A DNA stretch of 60,076 nt, from the NCBI GenBank assembly GCA_019247695.1, contig JAFBAP010000016.1, positions 1 through 60,076 of the forward strand, read 5' to 3'. The stretch comes from Verrucomicrobiota bacterium (GTDB lineage: Bacteria; Verrucomicrobiota; Verrucomicrobiia; Chthoniobacterales; JAFAMB01). A program made the position numbers and the translations under genes. The first letter of the stretch is position 1, and every line of letters begins with the position of its first letter. Below are positions 20,818-31,120 of the stretch, one piece after another. The notes under the pieces were generated by a model, which saw nothing but the letters and a program-made list of their open reading frames with translations, ran no database searches and was not told where the DNA came from.

Positions 20818-22296
20818 ATGCGCAAACTTCTCAAGCACTTGCCGGGCCTTGCCGTCGCTGGTTTTGCGGCAACCCTGCTTTTGGTGCCTTTGTCCAGCAA
20901 GGCGCAGGCGCCGACCCCATCGCCTACGCCCATGACGGCCGGCACGCCCGCCGCGTCGCCTGCACCGGCTGCCAGCCCGACCATGGAGGATCGTGTTGCG
21001 AATCTCGAGGCCTACCTGGGCAACTCAGCCGGGCCGAAGACCATCCAACCCGCCTCCGGACCCGGCCACAATGGCTGGATGATGACCGCAGCTGCGTTGG
21101 TTCTCTTCATGACCCTGCCGGGCCTCGCGCTGTTTTACGGCGGCTTGGTGCGTGAGAAGAACGTGCTCTCCGTGCTCGCCCAGTGCCTTGGGATCACGGG
21201 GTTGGTGACGATACTCTGGTGGGCGTTCGGTTACAGCCTGGTGTTCGGCAAAAGTTTCAACAACCCGTTCTTCGGAGGTTCCGAATTTTTCTTTCTGCAC
21301 GGCGTCGATTCTTCTCCCAACACCGATTACGCGTACTGGGTTTCGCAGAACGTGTACTCGATGTACCAGCTGATGTTCGCGATCATCACGCCGGCGCTGA
21401 TCGTCGGCGCCATCGCCGAACGCATGAAGTACTCCGCCCTCATGCTCTTCATGCTGTGCTGGATGTTCCTCGTCTACTTCCCGATGGCGCACATGATCTG
21501 GGGCGTCTCCGGGTTCATGAACGGCATCTCGAACGCAAATTCGGGGATCAAGGCGATCGACTTCGCCGGCGGAACGGTGGTGCACATGACGTCGGGCTGG
21601 AGCGCCCTGATTCTTTGCCTCATCCTCGGTCCCCGGCTCGGGTTCAAGCGTGAACCGATCCCGCCGCACAACCTGGTGCTGACCATGATCGGGACCGGGA
21701 TGCTCTGGGTAGGCTGGTACGGGTTTAACGCCGGCAGCGCCGTTGCGGCTGACGGGATTGCGGCGAACGCTTTCATGACCACGACGCTTGCGACTGCCAC
21801 AGCCGCCTTTACCTGGGCCATGCTGGAAAAAGTGCTGCGCGGCAAGGCGAGCGTGCTCGGCTATTGCACCGGTGCGGTCGCCGGGCTGGTCGTCATCACC
21901 CCGGCTTGCGGTTTCGTGAACGCTTCGGGCGCGATGATCATCGGCGTCGCCGCCGCGGTTCTCCCCTACTTCGCCGTTTCCGCTCTCAAACCGGCTTTAG
22001 GGTATGACGACGCCCTGGATACGTTCGGCGTTCACGGGGTCGGCGGGACCATGGGCGCGCTGCTGACGGGCCTGCTGGCCACCAAGGAAGTAAACAGCAA
22101 CCTTAAGGATGAACTGCTCCGCCCGCTCTTCATGTCGCAGGTCGAGGCGGTCTGCGTCACCCTCGTCCTGTCGACGGTTGCGACCGCCGTGATTGCGTTC
22201 GTGATCAAGGCCATCATCGGTTTGCGGCCGAGCCCTGACACGGAGACCGCCGGCCTTGACATTTCCGACCACGGTGAAGAGGCATATATCAGTTAA
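20818..22296 (+). CDS. amt: Ammonium transporter Amt
   Basis: This is a 492-residue inner-membrane channel for ammonium uptake. It starts with a signal peptide (residues 1-30, ending SSKAQA). A Pro/Thr/Ala-rich periplasmic linker and a short helical segment (MEDRVANLEAYL) precede the eleven membrane helices, which begin about residue 90. The twin-histidine pore residues lie in VVHMTSGWSAL and FGVHGVGG. The long periplasmic N-terminal extension is more than E. coli AmtB has. It is driven by a consensus sigma-54 promoter and followed 56 bases later by a PII gene, the classic amt-glnK pair, so uptake is likely gated by PII. Confidence 0.96.
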   Translation: MRKLLKHLPGLAVAGFAATLLLVPLSSKAQAPTPSPTPMTAGTPAASPAPAASPTMEDRVANLEAYLGNSAGPKTIQPASGPGHNGWMMTAAALVLFMTLPGLALFYGGLVREKNVLSVLAQCLGITGLVTILWWAFGYSLVFGKSFNNPFFGGSEFFFLHGVDSSPNTDYAYWVSQNVYSMYQLMFAIITPALIVGAIAERMKYSALMLFMLCWMFLVYFPMAHMIWGVSGFMNGISNANSGIKAIDFAGGTVVHMTSGWSALILCLILGPRLGFKREPIPPHNLVLTMIGTGMLWVGWYGFNAGSAVAADGIAANAFMTTTLATATAAFTWAMLEKVLRGKASVLGYCTGAVAGLVVITPACGFVNASGAMIIGVAAAVLPYFAVSALKPALGYDDALDTFGVHGVGGTMGALLTGLLATKEVNSNLKDELLRPLFMSQVEAVCVTLVLSTVATAVIAFVIKAIIGLRPSPDTETAGLDISDHGEEAYIS

Positions 22297-22307
22297 CCTA
22301 AGTTTAG

Positions 22308-22691
<384 letters not shown>

Positions 22692-22724
22692 CGATTTTCT
22701 TGAAAGGGCGCTGATGGATGAAGG

Positions 22725-22761
22725 GGGCGCAGGCGCGGAAGCGCCTCCGCCTCTTTTTTTC
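22725..22761 (+). terminator. Intrinsic terminator after amt-glnK
   Basis: A GC-rich stem of two segments (22725-22730 with 22749-22754, and AGGCGC with GCGCCT) is interrupted by a single C-C mismatch. It closes on a GGAA tetraloop and is followed directly by seven T residues (22755-22761). It starts 33 bases after the PII stop. This is the clearest rho-independent terminator in the window. Confidence 0.85.
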
Positions 22762-22864
22762 TTTCTTACCTTCTTATCCCGGATCTTCTCGGACGCAGCG
22801 GCGGTGCGCGGGAGTTTGCGGCACCTTGGCGATGCGCCTGTCCCGTGATACCCTCGGAGCCACC

Positions 22865-23974
22865 ATGACGTACACGGCCGTCGAACACCTGGACCCGGTC
22901 AATGCGCGCATCCTCGCGGTTTCCGAAGATAAGATCACCGGCTTTCACCGGGAACCGTTTGAACGGATTGCCGCACTCAGCGGAGTGGCCGAGGCGACGA
23001 TCCTGGAACGCATTCGACTGATGCTGGCGGCGGGAACGATCCGCCGCGTCCGGCAAACCATCCTGGCGACCAATCTGGCCGAGGGCGCCCTGGTGGCCTG
23101 GAAAGTTCCTCCGCACAAGCTTGACTCCGCCTTCGATTTCCTCTTTCAACAAGACCCTTTTTCCGGCCACGTGGTGATCCGGTCGACCGATGCGGAGACG
23201 GCCGGTAGCGAATACCGCCTCTGGACGACGCTCAAGGTGCCCGCCGGGTTCAGCCTGGAGGAACACTGCCGCCGGTTAAGCCCCGTGATCGGGGCGGAAA
23301 AGTTCCGTACGATGCGCGCCGAAGGTATTTTTACTCTCGGCGTGGGTCACGTGCGCCGCCGGACCATCGAACCCGGGGCTCGCGCCGATCTGCCGGCTGC
23401 AATGATCAGCACCGAGCTTGTGAAGCTGAGTGAAGTGGAATGGCGCGTCCTTACGTCGCTCAAACGAGAGTTCACGGCGGACGAGATCAGGCCTCACCCC
23501 TGGGTGGCCCGGGCCCGGGAGGCCGACCTGCCGTTAGAGACGTTTTGCGAAATCGCCGAGGCCCTGAATCGCCGGGGGGTGATCGGCCGGTTCTCGACCT
23601 TCCTCGAACACGTCAAGCCCTCCTCCACCGGGGTACGCGTGACCCGCTTCAATGCCTTGTTCCACTGGGCCGTCCCGCCGGGCCTGGAAGCCAGGGCGGG
23701 TTCGGAGATCGGCCGTCACGAAATCCTGACGCATTGTTACTGGCGGGAAGCCGGCCCGGAGTTCCGCAACGTGAACGTGATGGCCGTGGCGCACGGAACG
23801 GAAAAGCCGCGCCTGCTTGAGCATAAAAAGGCGATCGACGAACACCTGCAGGCTTGCGGCATCCCGGTTTCTTACACCAACGTTTTCTGGGGCGGACGGT
23901 CGGAAATCAAGCCGTCTGAGATTTCGCCGGCGGTTTACCGCGCCTGGCTCAGCCAGTTCCCCTCCGGAACGTGA
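22865..23974 (+). CDS. AsnC/Lrp-like siroheme decarboxylase family protein (AhbA-AhbB/NirDL type)
   Basis: This 369-residue protein is built of two tandem modules, each a winged helix-turn-helix followed by an AsnC-type ligand-binding domain. The second module carries the siroheme decarboxylase-like signature ILTHCYWRE and, after it, VNVMAVAHG; the first is more divergent. Such fused proteins (NirDL, AhbAB) remove acetate side chains from siroheme on the route to heme d1 or heme. No other heme-pathway genes are nearby, so a plain regulator is possible. The ATG at 22865 was chosen because the frame upstream crosses the terminator. Its stop overlaps the GTG start of rlmH by four bases. Confidence 0.6.
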   Translation: MTYTAVEHLDPVNARILAVSEDKITGFHREPFERIAALSGVAEATILERIRLMLAAGTIRRVRQTILATNLAEGALVAWKVPPHKLDSAFDFLFQQDPFSGHVVIRSTDAETAGSEYRLWTTLKVPAGFSLEEHCRRLSPVIGAEKFRTMRAEGIFTLGVGHVRRRTIEPGARADLPAAMISTELVKLSEVEWRVLTSLKREFTADEIRPHPWVARAREADLPLETFCEIAEALNRRGVIGRFSTFLEHVKPSSTGVRVTRFNALFHWAVPPGLEARAGSEIGRHEILTHCYWREAGPEFRNVNVMAVAHGTEKPRLLEHKKAIDEHLQACGIPVSYTNVFWGGRSEIKPSEISPAVYRAWLSQFPSGT

Positions 23975-24411
23975 CCTGGCGTATTGCTGCCGTCGGCAAA
24001 CCCAGGCTGCCGTATGCGCTCGCCGGGATCGCCGAGTACGAAAGGCGAATCCGGCGGTTCGCGCGGGTCGATTGGCGAATCGTCCCGGCGAGTGATGCGC
24101 GCCGGGAATCACTCGCGCTGCTGGAAACGTCCAAGGGTCAGCTTCGCCTCCTGCTCGATCCGCGCGGCACCCAGTTCACCAGCCGGGAGTTTGCCGCAAA
24201 AGTGGAAAACTGGGCTCTATTTTCCCCCCAGGCCGTGACCCTGCTGGTCGGAGGTGCTGACGGAGTCACCGACGAAGTTCGGGCCCAGGCGGATTTACTC
24301 TGGTCACTCAGCCGGCAGACCTTGCCGCACGAATTGGCGTTGCTGGTCGCGCTGGAACAAATCTATCGCGCGCACACGATCCTGGCAGGCCAACCTTACC
24401 ACCGGGAGTGA
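23971..24411 (+). CDS. rlmH: 23S rRNA (pseudouridine1915-N3)-methyltransferase RlmH
   Basis: This is a 146-residue SPOUT-family methyltransferase that methylates pseudouridine 1915 in helix 69 of 23S rRNA. The knotted C-terminal half shows the SAM-binding LLVGGADGV motif and the typical ending LEQIYRAHTILAGQPYHRE. The internal LSLSKxTxPHQL-type motif is seen as WSLSRQTLPHEL. It starts with GTG overlapping the previous stop. The N-terminus is divergent from the family consensus, but the length is nearly normal. Confidence 0.9.
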   Translation: MTWRIAAVGKPRLPYALAGIAEYERRIRRFARVDWRIVPASDARRESLALLETSKGQLRLLLDPRGTQFTSREFAAKVENWALFSPQAVTLLVGGADGVTDEVRAQADLLWSLSRQTLPHELALLVALEQIYRAHTILAGQPYHRE

Positions 24412-24677: not shown

Positions 24678-27353
24678 ATGCGGTTGCGAATCCTTATTGT
24701 ATGCGTGTTGATCTTTTCCTCTGAGTATGGCCGGTCGCAAGCGGCCGCTGGGTCGGAACCTGAATCAGCGCCGACCAGCCAGCCGGCGATTCCGTTGCGT
24801 TACCTGGTTCATCTGGAGCCCAATCTGGAAGCAGAGCGGTTTGAAGGCGCGGAAGATATTCAACTCCAGGTCCGCGCCACGGTTCGCGACATCACCCTGG
24901 ATGCGGTGGATCTGGAGATCAGCCGTGCGGTGTTGCGCACCCCTTCGGGCGAACTGGCCTTGCGACCCGAAACCGACGACGTCGCGCAACAGTTGAGGCT
25001 GGTTGCCGAGCAGGAGGTCCCGCCAGGGGAGTATCACCTGGGCTTGAGGTTCCGGGGCAAGATCCACCGCGAACCGCACGGGCTCTGTTTCGTGCCGCCT
25101 ACCGGCGCTCCCGACGCGCCGCCGATCCTGGCAAGTCGTCTCGCCCCCTGTTCTGCCCGTGAGGTTTTCCCTTGTTTTGACCAGCCGGGCCTGCGTGCCA
25201 GGATCCAACTTTCGATCAGAACCGCCCGTAAAAACGAGGCCGTTTCCAACCTGCCCACGATCGCTGAGCAACCGGTCGGCACCGATAAGGTCGTGATCTT
25301 TGCCGAGGCGCCCCCGATGCCGGTCTACCTGGTTTCGGTGGTTTGCGGGGAGTTGACCGCCGTCCAGGAACATCTGCCGACAACGACTCTGCGGATCCTG
25401 ACCCTGCCCGGAAGCGAGCCTCTGGCGCAATACGCGCTGGGTCTTACCAAACAGCTGCTGCAATACTATGAGGATTACTTCGACGCGCCCTTTCCGCTTC
25501 CCAAACTCGACCAGGTTGCCCTGCCGTCCCCGTGGAGCGGCACCGCGATCGGCTGGGGCGCGGTCACGTACCCTTCCGGCACGGTTTTATTAAGTCCCGG
25601 GCAAACCACCCTGGCGCAGGAAAGGGTGGTCTTTGAACAGATCGCACGCGCCATGGCGCAGCAATGGCTCGGGGCGTTCGTCGGCTTTGCGTCGTGGAGC
25701 GACCTTTGGCTCGGAAAGGGACTGGCCTCCTGGATACAGGCCAAGGCAACCGAACACTTCCACCCGGACTGGAAGTTCTGGCTCGCGCAAACCCCGCAAC
25801 TGGACGACCTGATGCTCAACGACGCCGGTGACGGCAGCCAGCCGATCCAGCGCCCGATTCACTCGCCGCAGGAAGCGTTCCAGGCCTATGAAGGCTACGC
25901 CCCGTTGAAAACGGAACGCCTGCTGAGGATGATTGAGGCGTTCGTGGGCGAGGCCGCGTTTCATGACGGGCTGAAATCGTTTTTGGTTTCGTACGCGCTT
26001 CGCACGGCGCAGAGCCAGGATTTCTGGTCGTCGATCGACAGCAAATCGAATCGCGAGGTGGCGGTGTGGGCCGCGCGGTGGTTTACGCAGCCCGGCTTAC
26101 CGCTGGTCAAGATTACCTCCCAATGCATTAACGACCGGCGCATCGTCAGCCTGGAGCAGATGCGATTGACCCTCCGGCAGGAGGCAGCCGCGGGTGAACC
26201 GGAACAATGGACCATTCCGGTCGGTATTCTGAACGTGGCTCCGGCCGAACGAACCCGGTACGCCCTCCTTCAGAAGGTCACGGAGAACTTCGAGACGGGT
26301 CATTGCCAAGCGGCGATCAAGGCGAATCCCGGCGCGCTCGGCTATTTCCGGATCTGGTACGAACCCGCCCTGGTCGGGGATCTCGAAAAACGTTCGGATC
26401 TTCTTGACGAAAGCGACCGGGTCAACCTGTTGTCCGACGTTTTTGCAACGGTGCAGACCCAACGCACGCCGGTGTCCGTTTTCATGGACTTGGTTGATCG
26501 TTGGCGCGACGACCGCAGCTTGAATGTCTGGAGAGCCATTCGCCACGCCCTCATCGCATTGGACCAGATAGAAACGGGCGACAGCGGGCGAGAACGGTTC
26601 CAGAGCTGCGTGTGCACCTTGCTGGGTGACCGGTTCGAGCGCCTCGGCTGGGAACCGGTCGCCGGTGAACCGGCCGAGCGCAGCCAGGAACGAGCGGACC
26701 TGATCGAAACGCTTGGACACTTCGGCGACCGCGCCATTATCGATGAAGCCTTTCGCCGGTTTGAGGCGCTGCAAAAGGATCCGGCCGCCGTTCCGCCAAG
26801 TCTGAAGGGAACCGTGCTCCGGCTGGTGGGACGGTATTCCTCCGACGGTACGTTCAAGGCGCTTCAGGAGCTTGCCCGGAAGGAATCGTCCCCGGCGGAC
26901 AAGCAGCTTTGCCTTGACGCGCTCGGAGCCGCCCTGGACCCGGACCTGGTCAGCATGTTCCTCGAACAGGAGGCGGCGCTCCCCAACATGAACCTGGCCT
27001 CATTCACCATTATCCTGGCAAATGTCGCCAAGGCAGGTGAACACGCCGATCTCGTGTGGCGTTACCTCAAGGGCCGGCCGGACCTGCTCGAAAACGCCGA
27101 ACTTTGGCGCAACGGAGATCTGGTCAGCGCACTCGCGTTTGGTCTTAACACCCCGCAATTTCGCCAGGAGTTTCTGAGCGCCGCGCAAAACTTTTCCGGC
27201 GTGATCCCGAGTTCCCGCCTCAGCGACGCGCTGATGTTGCACGACCTCAAGGTGGATTTGGAGGCTGCCATTGAGCCCGCCCTGGACGCTTGGGTCAACA
27301 AACGGCTCAGCGGCAAAGCACCGGACTCCACCCCCGGCACCCTCGGCGGATAA
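24678..27353 (+). CDS. Secreted M1-family peptidase homologue lacking the active site
   Basis: This 891-residue protein has the domain order of aminopeptidase N: a signal peptide (residues 1-22), N-terminal beta domain, catalytic-fold domain (DQPGLRARIQ, then DLWLGKGLASW) and C-terminal helical repeats. The active site is destroyed. The HEXXH position reads RAMAQ (324-328), the third zinc ligand Glu is Lys347 in WLGKG, exactly 23 residues after the first, and GAMEN reads GAVTY (294-298), losing the Glu that binds the substrate N-terminus. It cannot bind catalytic zinc in the usual way. A binding or scaffold function in the cell envelope is my inference. The ATG at 24678 gives the signal peptide. 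There is no sign of frameshift, so the gene is under selection. Confidence 0.85.
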   Translation: MRLRILIVCVLIFSSEYGRSQAAAGSEPESAPTSQPAIPLRYLVHLEPNLEAERFEGAEDIQLQVRATVRDITLDAVDLEISRAVLRTPSGELALRPETDDVAQQLRLVAEQEVPPGEYHLGLRFRGKIHREPHGLCFVPPTGAPDAPPILASRLAPCSAREVFPCFDQPGLRARIQLSIRTARKNEAVSNLPTIAEQPVGTDKVVIFAEAPPMPVYLVSVVCGELTAVQEHLPTTTLRILTLPGSEPLAQYALGLTKQLLQYYEDYFDAPFPLPKLDQVALPSPWSGTAIGWGAVTYPSGTVLLSPGQTTLAQERVVFEQIARAMAQQWLGAFVGFASWSDLWLGKGLASWIQAKATEHFHPDWKFWLAQTPQLDDLMLNDAGDGSQPIQRPIHSPQEAFQAYEGYAPLKTERLLRMIEAFVGEAAFHDGLKSFLVSYALRTAQSQDFWSSIDSKSNREVAVWAARWFTQPGLPLVKITSQCINDRRIVSLEQMRLTLRQEAAAGEPEQWTIPVGILNVAPAERTRYALLQKVTENFETGHCQAAIKANPGALGYFRIWYEPALVGDLEKRSDLLDESDRVNLLSDVFATVQTQRTPVSVFMDLVDRWRDDRSLNVWRAIRHALIALDQIETGDSGRERFQSCVCTLLGDRFERLGWEPVAGEPAERSQERADLIETLGHFGDRAIIDEAFRRFEALQKDPAAVPPSLKGTVLRLVGRYSSDGTFKALQELARKESSPADKQLCLDALGAALDPDLVSMFLEQEAALPNMNLASFTIILANVAKAGEHADLVWRYLKGRPDLLENAELWRNGDLVSALAFGLNTPQFRQEFLSAAQNFSGVIPSSRLSDALMLHDLKVDLEAAIEPALDAWVNKRLSGKAPDSTPGTLGG

Positions 27354-27425: not shown

Positions 27426-28883
27426 CTACGATAACAGCCTTTGCAACGCTTCTCCCACGAGCGCCGGATTGGCTTTCCCCTTGGAAAGTTTCATGACCTG
27501 GCCCTTAAGGAAATTGATCGAAGCTGATTTACCGCCCCGGTAATCCTCCACGACCTTGGGATTGGCCGCGATGACTTCCTGACAGAGCGCCTCGATCGCC
27601 CCGAGGTTGCTCTCCTGCTGCAACCCTTTCTGACGCACGATCGTATGCGGATCGACGCCGGTGGCGAACATCTCCGCGAAGACGTCTTTGCCCTGCTTGC
27701 TGTTGATCCTGCCTTCGTCAATCAACGTCACCAGCGCGTTCAGGTCCTCGGGCTTGACCGGCGATTGCTCCACGCTTTTGTCTGCCGCGCCCAACGCGCT
27801 CAACAGATCGTTGATGACGTAGTTGGCAACCGACTTCGGCCGCGCCGAACCGCGCGCTGCAGCTTCAAAATAGGCCGAGAGCGCCACGTCATCGGCCAGA
27901 ACGCCCGCGTCGTACGCGCTGACCCCATAATCTTTTACGAACCGTTCACGCTTCTCCCAGGGTGTCTCCGGCAAACGCGAACGCACCTCATCCATAAACA
28001 CTTCCGTCCTGACCGGCAAAAGATCGGGATCCGGAAAGTAGCGGTAATCGTGAGCCGATTCCTTGGTGCGCATGAGGGTGGTCTCGCCAAGATCGTCGTC
28101 CCACCGGCGCGTTTCCTGGCGAAGCGTTTCCCCCCGTTCACGAGCTTCGATCTGGCGGTTGATCTCGAACGCAAGCGCACGGCGCACCCCGCTGATCGAG
28201 TTCAGGTTCTTAAGCTCGATCTTAGCCCCGTACGCGGCGTCGGCATGTTTTCGCACGGACACATTCACGTCACAACGGAGTTGCCCTTTTTCCATGTCAG
28301 CGTCACTCACCCCGCCGTGAATCAGTGCCTGTTTCAGTGAAGTCAGGTAAGCGAACGCCTCCTCCGGAGATTCGATGTCCGGCTGCGAAACAATCTCCAT
28401 GAGCGGTGTGCCGGCCCGGTTGAAATCGATTCCGGTGCTGGTTTCAAAATGGAAACTCTTGGCCACGTCCTCCTCAAGGTGGATCCGGGTAAGCCGGACG
28501 CTTTTACCCGGGTTGGCGATGTTTTTCTGCGCATCCTTCGGGTACGCCAGATCATACAACGGCACTTCGCCTTGCTCGCCGATCGGCAGGGCATACTGCG
28601 AGATCTGGTAGTTCTTCGGCATGTCCGGGTAATAATAATTCTTGCGGTCGAAGTTACAGACCGGCGCGATCCGGCACTTCAACAGGAGCCCGGTAAGCGC
28701 CGTGAGCTTTAATGCCTCCAGGTTCATCACCGGCAGGGCGCCGGGCAAGCCCAGGCAGACCGGGCACGTATAAACGTTGGGCTCGGCGCCGTACTCCACC
28801 TTGCACCCGCAGAACATCTTGCTTTTGGTCTTGAGCTGGACGTGCACCTCCAGACCGATCGTGGCGGCATAATCACTTTTCAT
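27426..28883 (-). CDS. gatB: Aspartyl/glutamyl-tRNA(Asn/Gln) amidotransferase subunit B
   Basis: This 485-residue protein is the tRNA-binding kinase-like subunit of GatCAB, which converts Glu-tRNA(Gln) to Gln-tRNA(Gln). Signatures include IGLEVHVQLKTKSKMFC, the zinc-site cysteines YTCPVCLGLPG, YYYPDMPKNYQISQ, DFNRAGTPLMEIVS and the C-terminal YqeY-like domain (SINFLKGQVMKLSKGKANP). The ATG at 28883 matches the family N-terminus; the frame upstream is repeat-derived. The gatA and gatC genes are not in the window. A repeat island lies immediately upstream. Confidence 0.97.
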   Translation of the reverse strand: MKSDYAATIGLEVHVQLKTKSKMFCGCKVEYGAEPNVYTCPVCLGLPGALPVMNLEALKLTALTGLLLKCRIAPVCNFDRKNYYYPDMPKNYQISQYALPIGEQGEVPLYDLAYPKDAQKNIANPGKSVRLTRIHLEEDVAKSFHFETSTGIDFNRAGTPLMEIVSQPDIESPEEAFAYLTSLKQALIHGGVSDADMEKGQLRCDVNVSVRKHADAAYGAKIELKNLNSISGVRRALAFEINRQIEARERGETLRQETRRWDDDLGETTLMRTKESAHDYRYFPDPDLLPVRTEVFMDEVRSRLPETPWEKRERFVKDYGVSAYDAGVLADDVALSAYFEAAARGSARPKSVANYVINDLLSALGAADKSVEQSPVKPEDLNALVTLIDEGRINSKQGKDVFAEMFATGVDPHTIVRQKGLQQESNLGAIEALCQEVIAANPKVVEDYRGGKSASINFLKGQVMKLSKGKANPALVGEALQRLLS

Positions 28884-29183
28884 TTCTCGACTCGAAACCA
28901 GCGATCCACAGATTACACAGATTGAAAGGCGTTTCATCAGCCGACGGGTCCAGCGGAGAAGAATCACGCGGCGCCACGGCGGGAAGACAGGATCATCCAC
29001 AGATTACACAGATTGACACAGATTAAGGCGACGGCCCGCGGCGCCTCTTCATTTGTGGCATTCTCTGCCGCTCCGAACCCCGAACCCCGAACTCCGAACG
29101 CTTTCCCCTTCTCCCCGCCGTGTTCGCCGTGTGAACTCCGTCGTCGTGCCCGCCTAATCGCTGTGCCCGCCGTGCGACCGAAC
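28884..29183. repeat. Composite intergenic repeat island R2
   Basis: This 300-base gap between the CvpA-like gene and gatB holds two CACAGATTACACAGATT units (28908-28924 and 28994-29010, the second with the following GACACAGATTAA), a CACGGCGGGAAGACAGGATC block, a GTGGCATTCTCTGCCGCT unit, a CCGAACCCC/CCGAACTCC run (29074-29100) and CGCCGTGTTCGCCGTGTGAA (29117-29136). No gene or promoter is visible, though both neighbours run on the minus strand, so the gatB promoter must lie here. Confidence 0.8.
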
Positions 29184-29984
29184 TTACCTTTCCTCCAGCG
29201 CATACCGCAGGGCGGCGTCGAACTGCGGGCCGGAAAAGATTTCCCGCCAGTCCGGGCGGTTCAGCAGGTCCCAGAGCCTCGGGTTGGCCAGCACCGCCCA
29301 GAAGTCGCCGCGCTCCAGGGCACGGGCGACAGCGGGGTCGGCGGCGAGCGCGCGGACCTGGGGATCATCCCAGGCCCGCTGGAAGCCCGGGTAGGTCATC
29401 AACCTCTCCAGAGCAATCGGGCTGGCGATCACCCGGGCGATCTGATCCAGCCGTTGATACACCTGTCGCGGCACCGGGTCGCAGGCGTCCACAAGCGATT
29501 TGCCAAGGACGGATTCAATCGAAGCCTGGAGGCGAACCGCGTTGGTCACCCACGGGTCAGGCGCCAAACCGTGCGCCAGAGCACCGGCTGACTGCTCAGC
29601 TGCAAAGTGGCCGGTGAGCCGGATCAGCAGCACTACGGCCCAGACCCAGAACAAGCCGAACGCCAGACCCAACAGACCGCCGGTGACGCCGAAGATGGTT
29701 CGGGTGAGCGGCTCCGCGTAGTCGCGGGTGCGTTTGAAGACGGTTCGTCCGATCAAGTACAGGACCTGGTAACCGACGAAGGCAAGGGCGCCGGCTCCCA
29801 CCAGGGAGGATACAGGTGCGGGCCAACCGGTTGATCTCGCCACCAGGCCGGCGGCGGTCGCGCCAAACGTATGCACCACGATCCACGTCAGAAGCAGCGC
29901 CGCCGGTTTCACCAGCAGCCGCAAGGGCCCGTTTGCCCAGCCGCGAACCAGTGAAACGAGGCACCAGAAGGCGAGCACGAGCAT
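29184..29984 (-). CDS. CvpA-family membrane protein
   Basis: This 266-residue protein has about four predicted membrane segments in its first 150 residues (MLVLAFWCLVSLVRGWANG, then LLLTWIVVHTFG, LVGAGALAFVGYQVLYLIG and LLGLAFGLFWVWAVVLLI), like colicin V production family proteins. The remainder is a soluble helical domain. The function in this group is unclear; CvpA homologues contribute to envelope integrity. I chose the ATG at 29984; a TTG at 30068 would add 28 residues and overlap aroC by 34 bases. It lies downstream of aroC, probably in one operon. Confidence 0.65.
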   Translation of the reverse strand: MLVLAFWCLVSLVRGWANGPLRLLVKPAALLLTWIVVHTFGATAAGLVARSTGWPAPVSSLVGAGALAFVGYQVLYLIGRTVFKRTRDYAEPLTRTIFGVTGGLLGLAFGLFWVWAVVLLIRLTGHFAAEQSAGALAHGLAPDPWVTNAVRLQASIESVLGKSLVDACDPVPRQVYQRLDQIARVIASPIALERLMTYPGFQRAWDDPQVRALAADPAVARALERGDFWAVLANPRLWDLLNRPDWREIFSGPQFDAALRYALEER

Positions 29985-30034
29985 GCAACCGGCCTGCCAA
30001 TGAGGATCGGGCGTTGGAGTCACGGACGTCCGGG

Positions 30035-31120
30035 TCAGGTCATATTTTGGGCCCGTTGCCGCAGCCAATGGTCACAGAGTACCAGCGCCGCCATCGCCTC
30101 CACCATCGGCACGGCCCTCGGCAACACGCAGGGATCATGGCGCCCGCGGGCCGCCAATTGCACCTCCTGTCCCTGATCATTCACCGTCGATTGGGGCCGC
30201 AGGATGGTGGCGGTCGGCTTGAAGGCAACCCGGAACACGATGTCTTCCCCGTTGCTGATGCCGCCCTGCACGCCGCCGGAACGGTTCGTCGCAGTCCGCA
30301 CCTGGCCCGCGCGCATTTCGAACGCATCATTGTGCTCCGCCCCCGTCATCAGGGAACCGGCAAAACCCGAACCGACCTCGAATCCTTTCGTGGCCGGCAA
30401 GCTGAGCATGGCCTTGGCCAGATCCGCTTCCAACCGGTCGAAGACGGGTTCACCCAGCCCGGGCGGCACGCCGCGGATCACGCAGGACACCACGCCGCCC
30501 ACCGAATTACCCTCTTTGCGCATCTGTTTGATGAGCGTAATCATCCGTTCCGATGTTTCCGGGTCAGGACAACGCACGATGGATCGCTCAACCTCGGCGC
30601 TCGTGACCGATCCGGGATCAACCTGCGCTTCGATCCGATGCACGCTTTGCACGAATGCCACCGTCTCAAACGCCGGTAAATGGGTGCGCAACACCTTCTT
30701 CGCGATCGCACCGGCGGCAACTCGCCCGATCGTCTCACGGGCCGAAGACCGTCCCCCGCCCTGCCAGTTCCGAATCCCGTACTTCGCCTGGTAGGTGTAG
30801 TCGGCGTGACTGGGCCGAAACGCGTGTTCCATCTCGCGGTAAGCCTCCGGGCGCGCGTCCGTGTTGCGAACCAGGACGGCAATCGGCGTACCGAGCGTGC
30901 GGCCCTCGAATACGCCGGACAGAATTTCGCAGCGGTCGGCTTCCGCCCGGGGTGTGACAATCTCACTTTGCCCGGGACGTCGCCGGTCCAGATCAGCCTG
31001 AAGATCTTCAGGCCCGAGAGGAATTTGCGCCGGGCACCCGTCAATGACGACGCCGACGCCCCCGCCGTGGGACTCACCCCAGGTCGCAACCCGGAAAAGA
31101 ACTCCAAACTGGGAAGACAT
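30035..31120 (-). CDS. aroC: Chorismate synthase
   Basis: This 361-residue FMN-dependent enzyme makes chorismate from EPSP at the end of the shikimate pathway. Signatures are [18 protein letters not shown], the [10 protein letters not shown] motif, [22 protein letters not shown] and the conserved [16 protein letters not shown]. The length is normal. The ATG at 31120 gives the family N-terminus. The upstream 570 bases are repeat-rich. The product feeds the PheA enzyme encoded at 55907. Confidence 0.97.

Follow-up and report, generated by a model that had tools for sequence, protein, structure and literature searches.

A selectively maintained, putatively exported M1-fold protein devoid of its zinc site in a family of Verrucomicrobiota

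The window analysed here, a 60,076-nt stretch of contig JAFBAP010000016.1, comes from a Verrucomicrobiota bacterium whose draft genome spans 5.19 Mb (96.7% complete), and carries a gene, hereafter pM1, whose frame runs uninterrupted over 891 residues to its stop codon (Table 1). The encoded protein matched three Pfam domains above their gathering scores (M1_N, 3.9e-25; M1, 6.1e-43; ERAP1_C, 2.9e-42) and aligned over residues 21-819 with puromycin-sensitive aminopeptidase (E = 5e-84), and both these domains and its predicted four-domain fold place it in peptidase family M1. The NCBIfam equivalogs remained below their curated cut-offs (pepN_strep_liv, 167.5 of 591.2 bits; leuko_A4_hydro, 66.9 of 761.7; pepN_proteo, 60.9 of 718.2). 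The intact frame announced by the original prediction, made from the DNA alone, is confirmed, and the signal peptide that it had proposed is supported by a leader visible by inspection (MRLR, then ILIVCVLIF and SSEYGRSQA) and by matching hydrophobic leaders in the orthologues, several of which end in AxA-like sites. From this leader, pM1 is apparently exported to the periplasm or outside the cell.

Table 1. Positions in the window of pM1, of its domains and former catalytic residues, and of the flanking genes.
Feature	Position	Strand	Evidence
Upstream flank common to other genera: amtB, PII, AsnC/NirDL-like	20818..24411	+	Locus comparison
pM1, putatively exported pseudo-aminopeptidase, M1 fold, 891 aa	24678..27353	+	Translation, Pfam, AF2, Foldseek
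Predicted Sec signal peptide, residues ~1-22	24678..24743	+	Inspection; orthologues with matching leaders
Domain I, residues 37-222 (M1_N)	24786..25343	+	Pfam match, residues 39-218
Domain II, residues 223-476, former catalytic domain	25344..26105	+	Pfam match, residues 252-468
Former GAMEN, now GTAIG, residues 288-292	25539..25553	+	Alignment; pLDDT <50 over 287-292
Former HEXXH, now RAMAQ, residues 324-328	25647..25661	+	Alignment
Former distal zinc-ligand Glu, now K347	25716..25718	+	Alignment
Former catalytic Tyr (YxKG), now P409	25902..25904	+	Alignment
Domain III beta-sandwich, residues 477-556, newly constrained	26106..26345	+	Rate and invariant-residue comparison
Domain IV, residues 557-878, ERAP1_C helical domain	26346..27311	+	Pfam match, residues 547-839
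Convergent downstream flank common to other genera: gatB, (Colicin_V-like orf), aroC	27426..31120	-	Locus comparison

The same gene order, amtB-PII-AsnC/NirDL-like-(rlmH)-pM1 convergent with gatB and aroC, was observed in three genera of the family (g1, to which the window belongs, g2 and g3); rlmH adjoins pM1 in g1 as well as two of the g2 genomes. Both flanks occur on a single contig in six genomes, window included, and the pieces remaining around contig breaks in three others (G002, G003, G006) agree with this order. These neighbours do not accompany the active M1 genes of the four outgroup genomes examined. Being housekeeping or nitrogen genes, they point to no functional partner, and the sequence surrounding pM1 displayed no conspicuous strong promoter or terminator. 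In two genomes, G008 (g3) and G009 (g4), gatB follows the AsnC-type gene within ~0.4 kb and pM1 is missing; tblastn detected no M1 remnant in these gaps, and the rest of either genome yielded no M1. The gene is therefore not essential across the family, and in these two genomes it was either lost from this locus or never there. Within the gap of G008 (L106:5600-6000) lies an inverted repeat with imperfect arms, GCAGCAAACTCTGTGAG ... CTCACAGAGTTTGCTGC, which may be a mobile or REP-like element.

Several other genes of the window deserve mention. The protein encoded after amtB and PII (window:22718-23974, 418 aa) combines two stretches that match an AsnC-type ligand-binding domain with a below-cutoff NirDL-like HTH, and is 65-73% identical across the genomes of the order and class tested. 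Near the pM1 locus, the product of window:31695-32864 displays a weak, below-cutoff Peptidase_M29 match and ~76% identity across the family. The left end of the window (window:1849-8527) harbours BREX-like defence genes, encoding a PglZ domain protein (window:1849-4578; weak below-cutoff match), a BrxC/D ATPase (window:4725-6395; E = 1e-133) and a DEAD/Cas3-like helicase (window:6389-8527).

Alignment with active relatives revealed that all the zinc ligands of the window protein are changed (H324R, H328Q, E347K), as is the general base (E325A). The original prediction had correctly placed RAMAQ in the HEXXH column and Lys347 at the position of the distal Glu, exactly 19 residues past residue 328. 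The motif that it had taken for the GAMEN counterpart, GAVTY, aligns instead to a downstream GGITY; the true counterpart is G288-T-A-I-G292 (active relatives, GGFGGAMENWGGITY; window, SPWSGTAIGWGAVTY), so the loss of GAMEN still holds. Beyond that prediction, the catalytic Tyr of the YxKG motif is P409, and the QME motif of domain I, which binds the N-terminus, is replaced by R154-L-A156. None of the features of a catalytic M1 enzyme is retained (HEXXHx18E, general base Glu, GAMEN, catalytic Tyr), and peptide hydrolysis by this protein is very unlikely because all the ligands, the base and the Tyr are lost.

This loss extends to every M1 active site read in the family. M1 proteins were found in 8 of the 11 genomes of the window's GTDB family, and every sequence spanning the active-site region (8/8, from g1, g2 and g3) is dead, a further genome (G003) having an N-terminal M1 fragment at a contig end beside the same neighbour genes. 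An orthologue with 86% identity, from a same-genus MAG labelled Verrucomicrobiota (G010), reads GAIAQ with K347 and P409. The three g3 genomes read RAIAQ...E with the Tyr changed to Ser, as it is in G001 (KEIAH...E) and G004 (QKLAL...E), while G002 reads KKLAS...E with a Glu in place of the Tyr. The GAMEN position is occupied by GTAIG, GTSVG, GSVES, SDTGN, DSTGI or DGGGI. H324, the GAMEN Met and Tyr409 are thus absent from all eight sequences, and E325, H328 and E347 are each retained in some of them only; this patchy retention implies a stepwise decay of the site. By contrast, all the 132 M1 loci read outside the family, which were drawn from sister families within the order and from further orders and classes of the phylum, keep HEXXHx18E in one of six frames, and no dead M1 was found among them. 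In the maximum likelihood tree (LG+C20+F+G4), the eight dead sequences lie on one side of a single branch supported at 100/100 and recovered in all bootstrap trees examined, and the clade has a single origin. The check proposed with the original prediction, a comparison of orthologues, therefore shows a site loss shared by the family with replacement letters varying by genus; no orthologue with an intact site was found within the family, and a recent inactivation is ruled out since every family orthologue read is dead.

These sequences also bear on two ways in which enzymatic function could persist. The site may have been rebuilt for another catalytic or metal-dependent activity, given that E347 is retained in g2 and g3 and that the KEIAH of G001 holds two of the three original ligand positions. 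However, no common new ligand set emerges from the genus-specific motifs (RAMAQ, GAIAQ, RAIAQ, KEIAH, QKLAL, KKLAS), and Tyr409 is gone from every dead sequence, making such a rebuilt site very improbable. Alternatively, since some pseudopeptidases regulate active relatives (PMC11266112), pM1 could regulate an active M1 paralogue present in the same cell, or pair with it in a dominant-negative manner. Each M1-bearing family genome has a single PF01433 match, which is dead, and therefore no active M1 is apparent in these cells; the window's genome is 96.7% complete and that of G004 95%. A plasmid search returned distant M1 relatives only (<60% identity). The single match per genome makes a paralogue partner barely credible, whereas action on an unrelated peptidase is still conceivable.

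Despite its dead site, pM1 is under strong purifying selection. Between the window and G010, dN was 0.074 and dS 0.635 (Nei-Gojobori, our own implementation), and the resulting ratio of 0.116 falls within the ranges of active M1 pairs (0.107-0.249) and of its housekeeping neighbours (gatB, 0.134; ribF, 0.143; rlmH, 0.093; aroC, 0.054); g3 pairs gave 0.132-0.189. The relaxed selection that would have contradicted the original prediction is not observed, and the full-length frames together with these ratios rule out a pseudogene. With its catalytic residues gone and selection maintained, the window protein qualifies as an M1 pseudo-enzyme. A gene drifting towards loss would be in line with the lack of pM1 at the G008 and G009 loci and with the very long stem of g1 in the tree (1.65 changes per site), but the frames are full-length in three genera, the ratios are low both in g1 and within g3, and domain III is under more constraint than in active enzymes, as described below, leaving decay a scarcely plausible explanation. 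The family-wide loss of the zinc site and this strong selection instead favour the original view that the protein is kept for a role other than cleavage.

The AF2 model of the window protein (28 sequences; pLDDT 83.4, pTM 0.84) predicted an intact body in which the exopeptidase loop lacks definition, the sole internal segment below 50 pLDDT being the former GAMEN loop (287-292). An active relative, L012, modelled with the same sequences (pLDDT 88.4, pTM 0.88), has no such segment apart from its leader and last residues. Foldseek searches of the PDB with the window model retrieved ERAP1, ERAP2, IRAP and aminopeptidase A, with TM-scores mostly of 0.84-0.88.

Constraint has been redistributed along this body. 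We compared regional rates, expressed as tree length relative to the whole protein on fixed topologies, between three sets of active enzymes and the dead clade (six sequences), with domain limits and a catalytic shell (residues 284-296, 316-356 and 398-413) of our own choosing. The shell, the slowest region in active enzymes (0.29-0.32), is the fastest in the dead clade (1.16), while domain III, the fastest in active enzymes (1.44-1.86), drops to 0.93; the rest of domain II moves from 0.58-0.79 to 0.92, and domain IV from 1.25-1.31 to 1.07. With a simpler measure and column bootstraps, the dead/active ratio was 2.62 for the shell (95% interval 1.89-3.69) and 0.71 for domain III (0.59-0.82). 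Positions whose residue is invariant in the dead clade but occurs in <10% of active enzymes and in none of the f9 relatives are concentrated in domain III (6/78 vs 7/723 elsewhere; Fisher p=0.0007, for a domain chosen after seeing the data, with shared ancestry ignored and six to eight sequences). They comprise E493, G516, Y528, A529, K533 and F538 in domain III, and C646, F692 and S722 in domain IV. Slow evolution and clade-specific residues together suggest domain III, possibly with domain IV, as the location of the currently selected surface.

Both the model and the rates can be confronted with the peptide binding that the original prediction had envisaged alongside a scaffold role. The old cleft might be retained as a pocket that holds peptides without cleaving them, making pM1 an exported peptide receptor or sponge: the cleft-forming domains II and IV are predicted to be retained, the GAMEN-position Glu is kept in g3 (GSVES) and the domain I Glu in G001, and the yeast M1 homologue Tma108 uses its substrate pocket to bind nascent chains (PMC11266112). 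Nevertheless, the window protein has other residues in place of the anchors of the N-terminus (the GAMEN Glu and the domain I Gln/Glu), which the clade as a whole has changed inconsistently; its model leaves the GAMEN loop poorly defined, unlike that of the active control, and the fast-evolving shell is 44% identical between G001 and G004 vs 65-68% for domains III and IV. A simple reuse of the peptide pocket is disfavoured by the lost anchors and the fast shell, and we consider it unlikely, though still worth entertaining. Of the original proposal, the scaffold thus stays compatible with the data and peptide binding loses ground; the suggested structural check yielded a predicted ERAP-like fold with an ill-defined GAMEN loop.

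The constraint on domain III could also reflect stability or disulfides rather than a ligand, as Cys223, Cys483, Cys543 and Cys646 are invariant in the dead clade and might form disulfide bonds. A C483-C543 pair is not specific to the dead clade, because position 483 is Cys in a quarter of the active proteins and both residues are Cys in the active L012. In this structural reading, pM1 would be a mere body, a spacer or an anchor, for instance for envelope attachment. Besides the cysteines, it is favoured by the low-complexity, TPTP/PSPTP-rich (Pro/Thr/Ser-rich) C-terminal tail, roughly 200-300 aa long, of the g3 orthologues (L004, L005, L008), a tail absent from g1 and g2 orthologues. However, g1 displays no apparent anchor motif, and a spacer would hardly need 891 residues held at a dN/dS of 0.12; we judge such a role decidedly unlikely.

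Since the fold, the export signal and strong selection are all kept in the dead clade, pM1 has probably become an exported protein with a binding or scaffold role. In the fuller form of this proposal, to which we give about even chances, it would be a non-catalytic M1-fold protein working through domains III and IV and not through the old cleft. The first zinc His and the catalytic Tyr would have disappeared in the ancestor of the M1-bearing genera of the family, the remaining metal site being later eroded along different lines in each genus. The four-domain body would have been retained by strong purifying selection because of a binding or scaffold role, periplasmic or extracellular, and the surface that is protected would have shifted from the catalytic cleft to the domain III beta-sandwich, which bridges the former catalytic domain and the helical domain IV, probably with the latter. 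More tentatively, the only M1 of the family might have been converted to an exported binding protein, its ligand site leaving the cleft for domain III, which in active enzymes is a mere fast-evolving linker.

In domain order and predicted fold, pM1 is the same as catalytic M1 proteins (puromycin-sensitive aminopeptidase, ERAP1/2, IRAP, tricorn-interacting factor F3, PepN), and it has a hydrophobic leader in common with active relatives; its nearest catalytic relatives are the M1 enzymes of sister Verrucomicrobiota families (~30-34% identity). It differs from catalytic M1 in the absence of zinc ligands, general base, catalytic Tyr and GAMEN, and in its distribution of constraint. Non-catalytic M1-fold proteins are already known in eukaryotes (TAF2, Tma108), the only ones that we found described. 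The zinc site of TAF2 is lost. By description, this TFIID subunit (PMC4309443) resembles pM1 in using an M1-like fold as part of an assembly and, as in g3, in its unstructured C-terminal region, but it is eukaryotic, nuclear and not exported, unlike the bacterial pM1 with its export leader. Tma108, the only M1 entry in the table of a 2024 review, is also thought to bind instead of cleave; however, it retains the zinc site (HEXXHx18E), absent from the window protein, uses its substrate pocket, acts at the ribosome and is not exported (PMC11266112). Our search of the open literature returned no description of a bacterial or exported M1 pseudo-enzyme. pM1 represents a bacterial, clade-wide case of single origin, with partly eroded forms such as the KEIAH of G001 and intact relatives in sister families, and the clade makes it possible to test directly to what new use a large enzyme body is put after losing catalysis, and which domain takes over.
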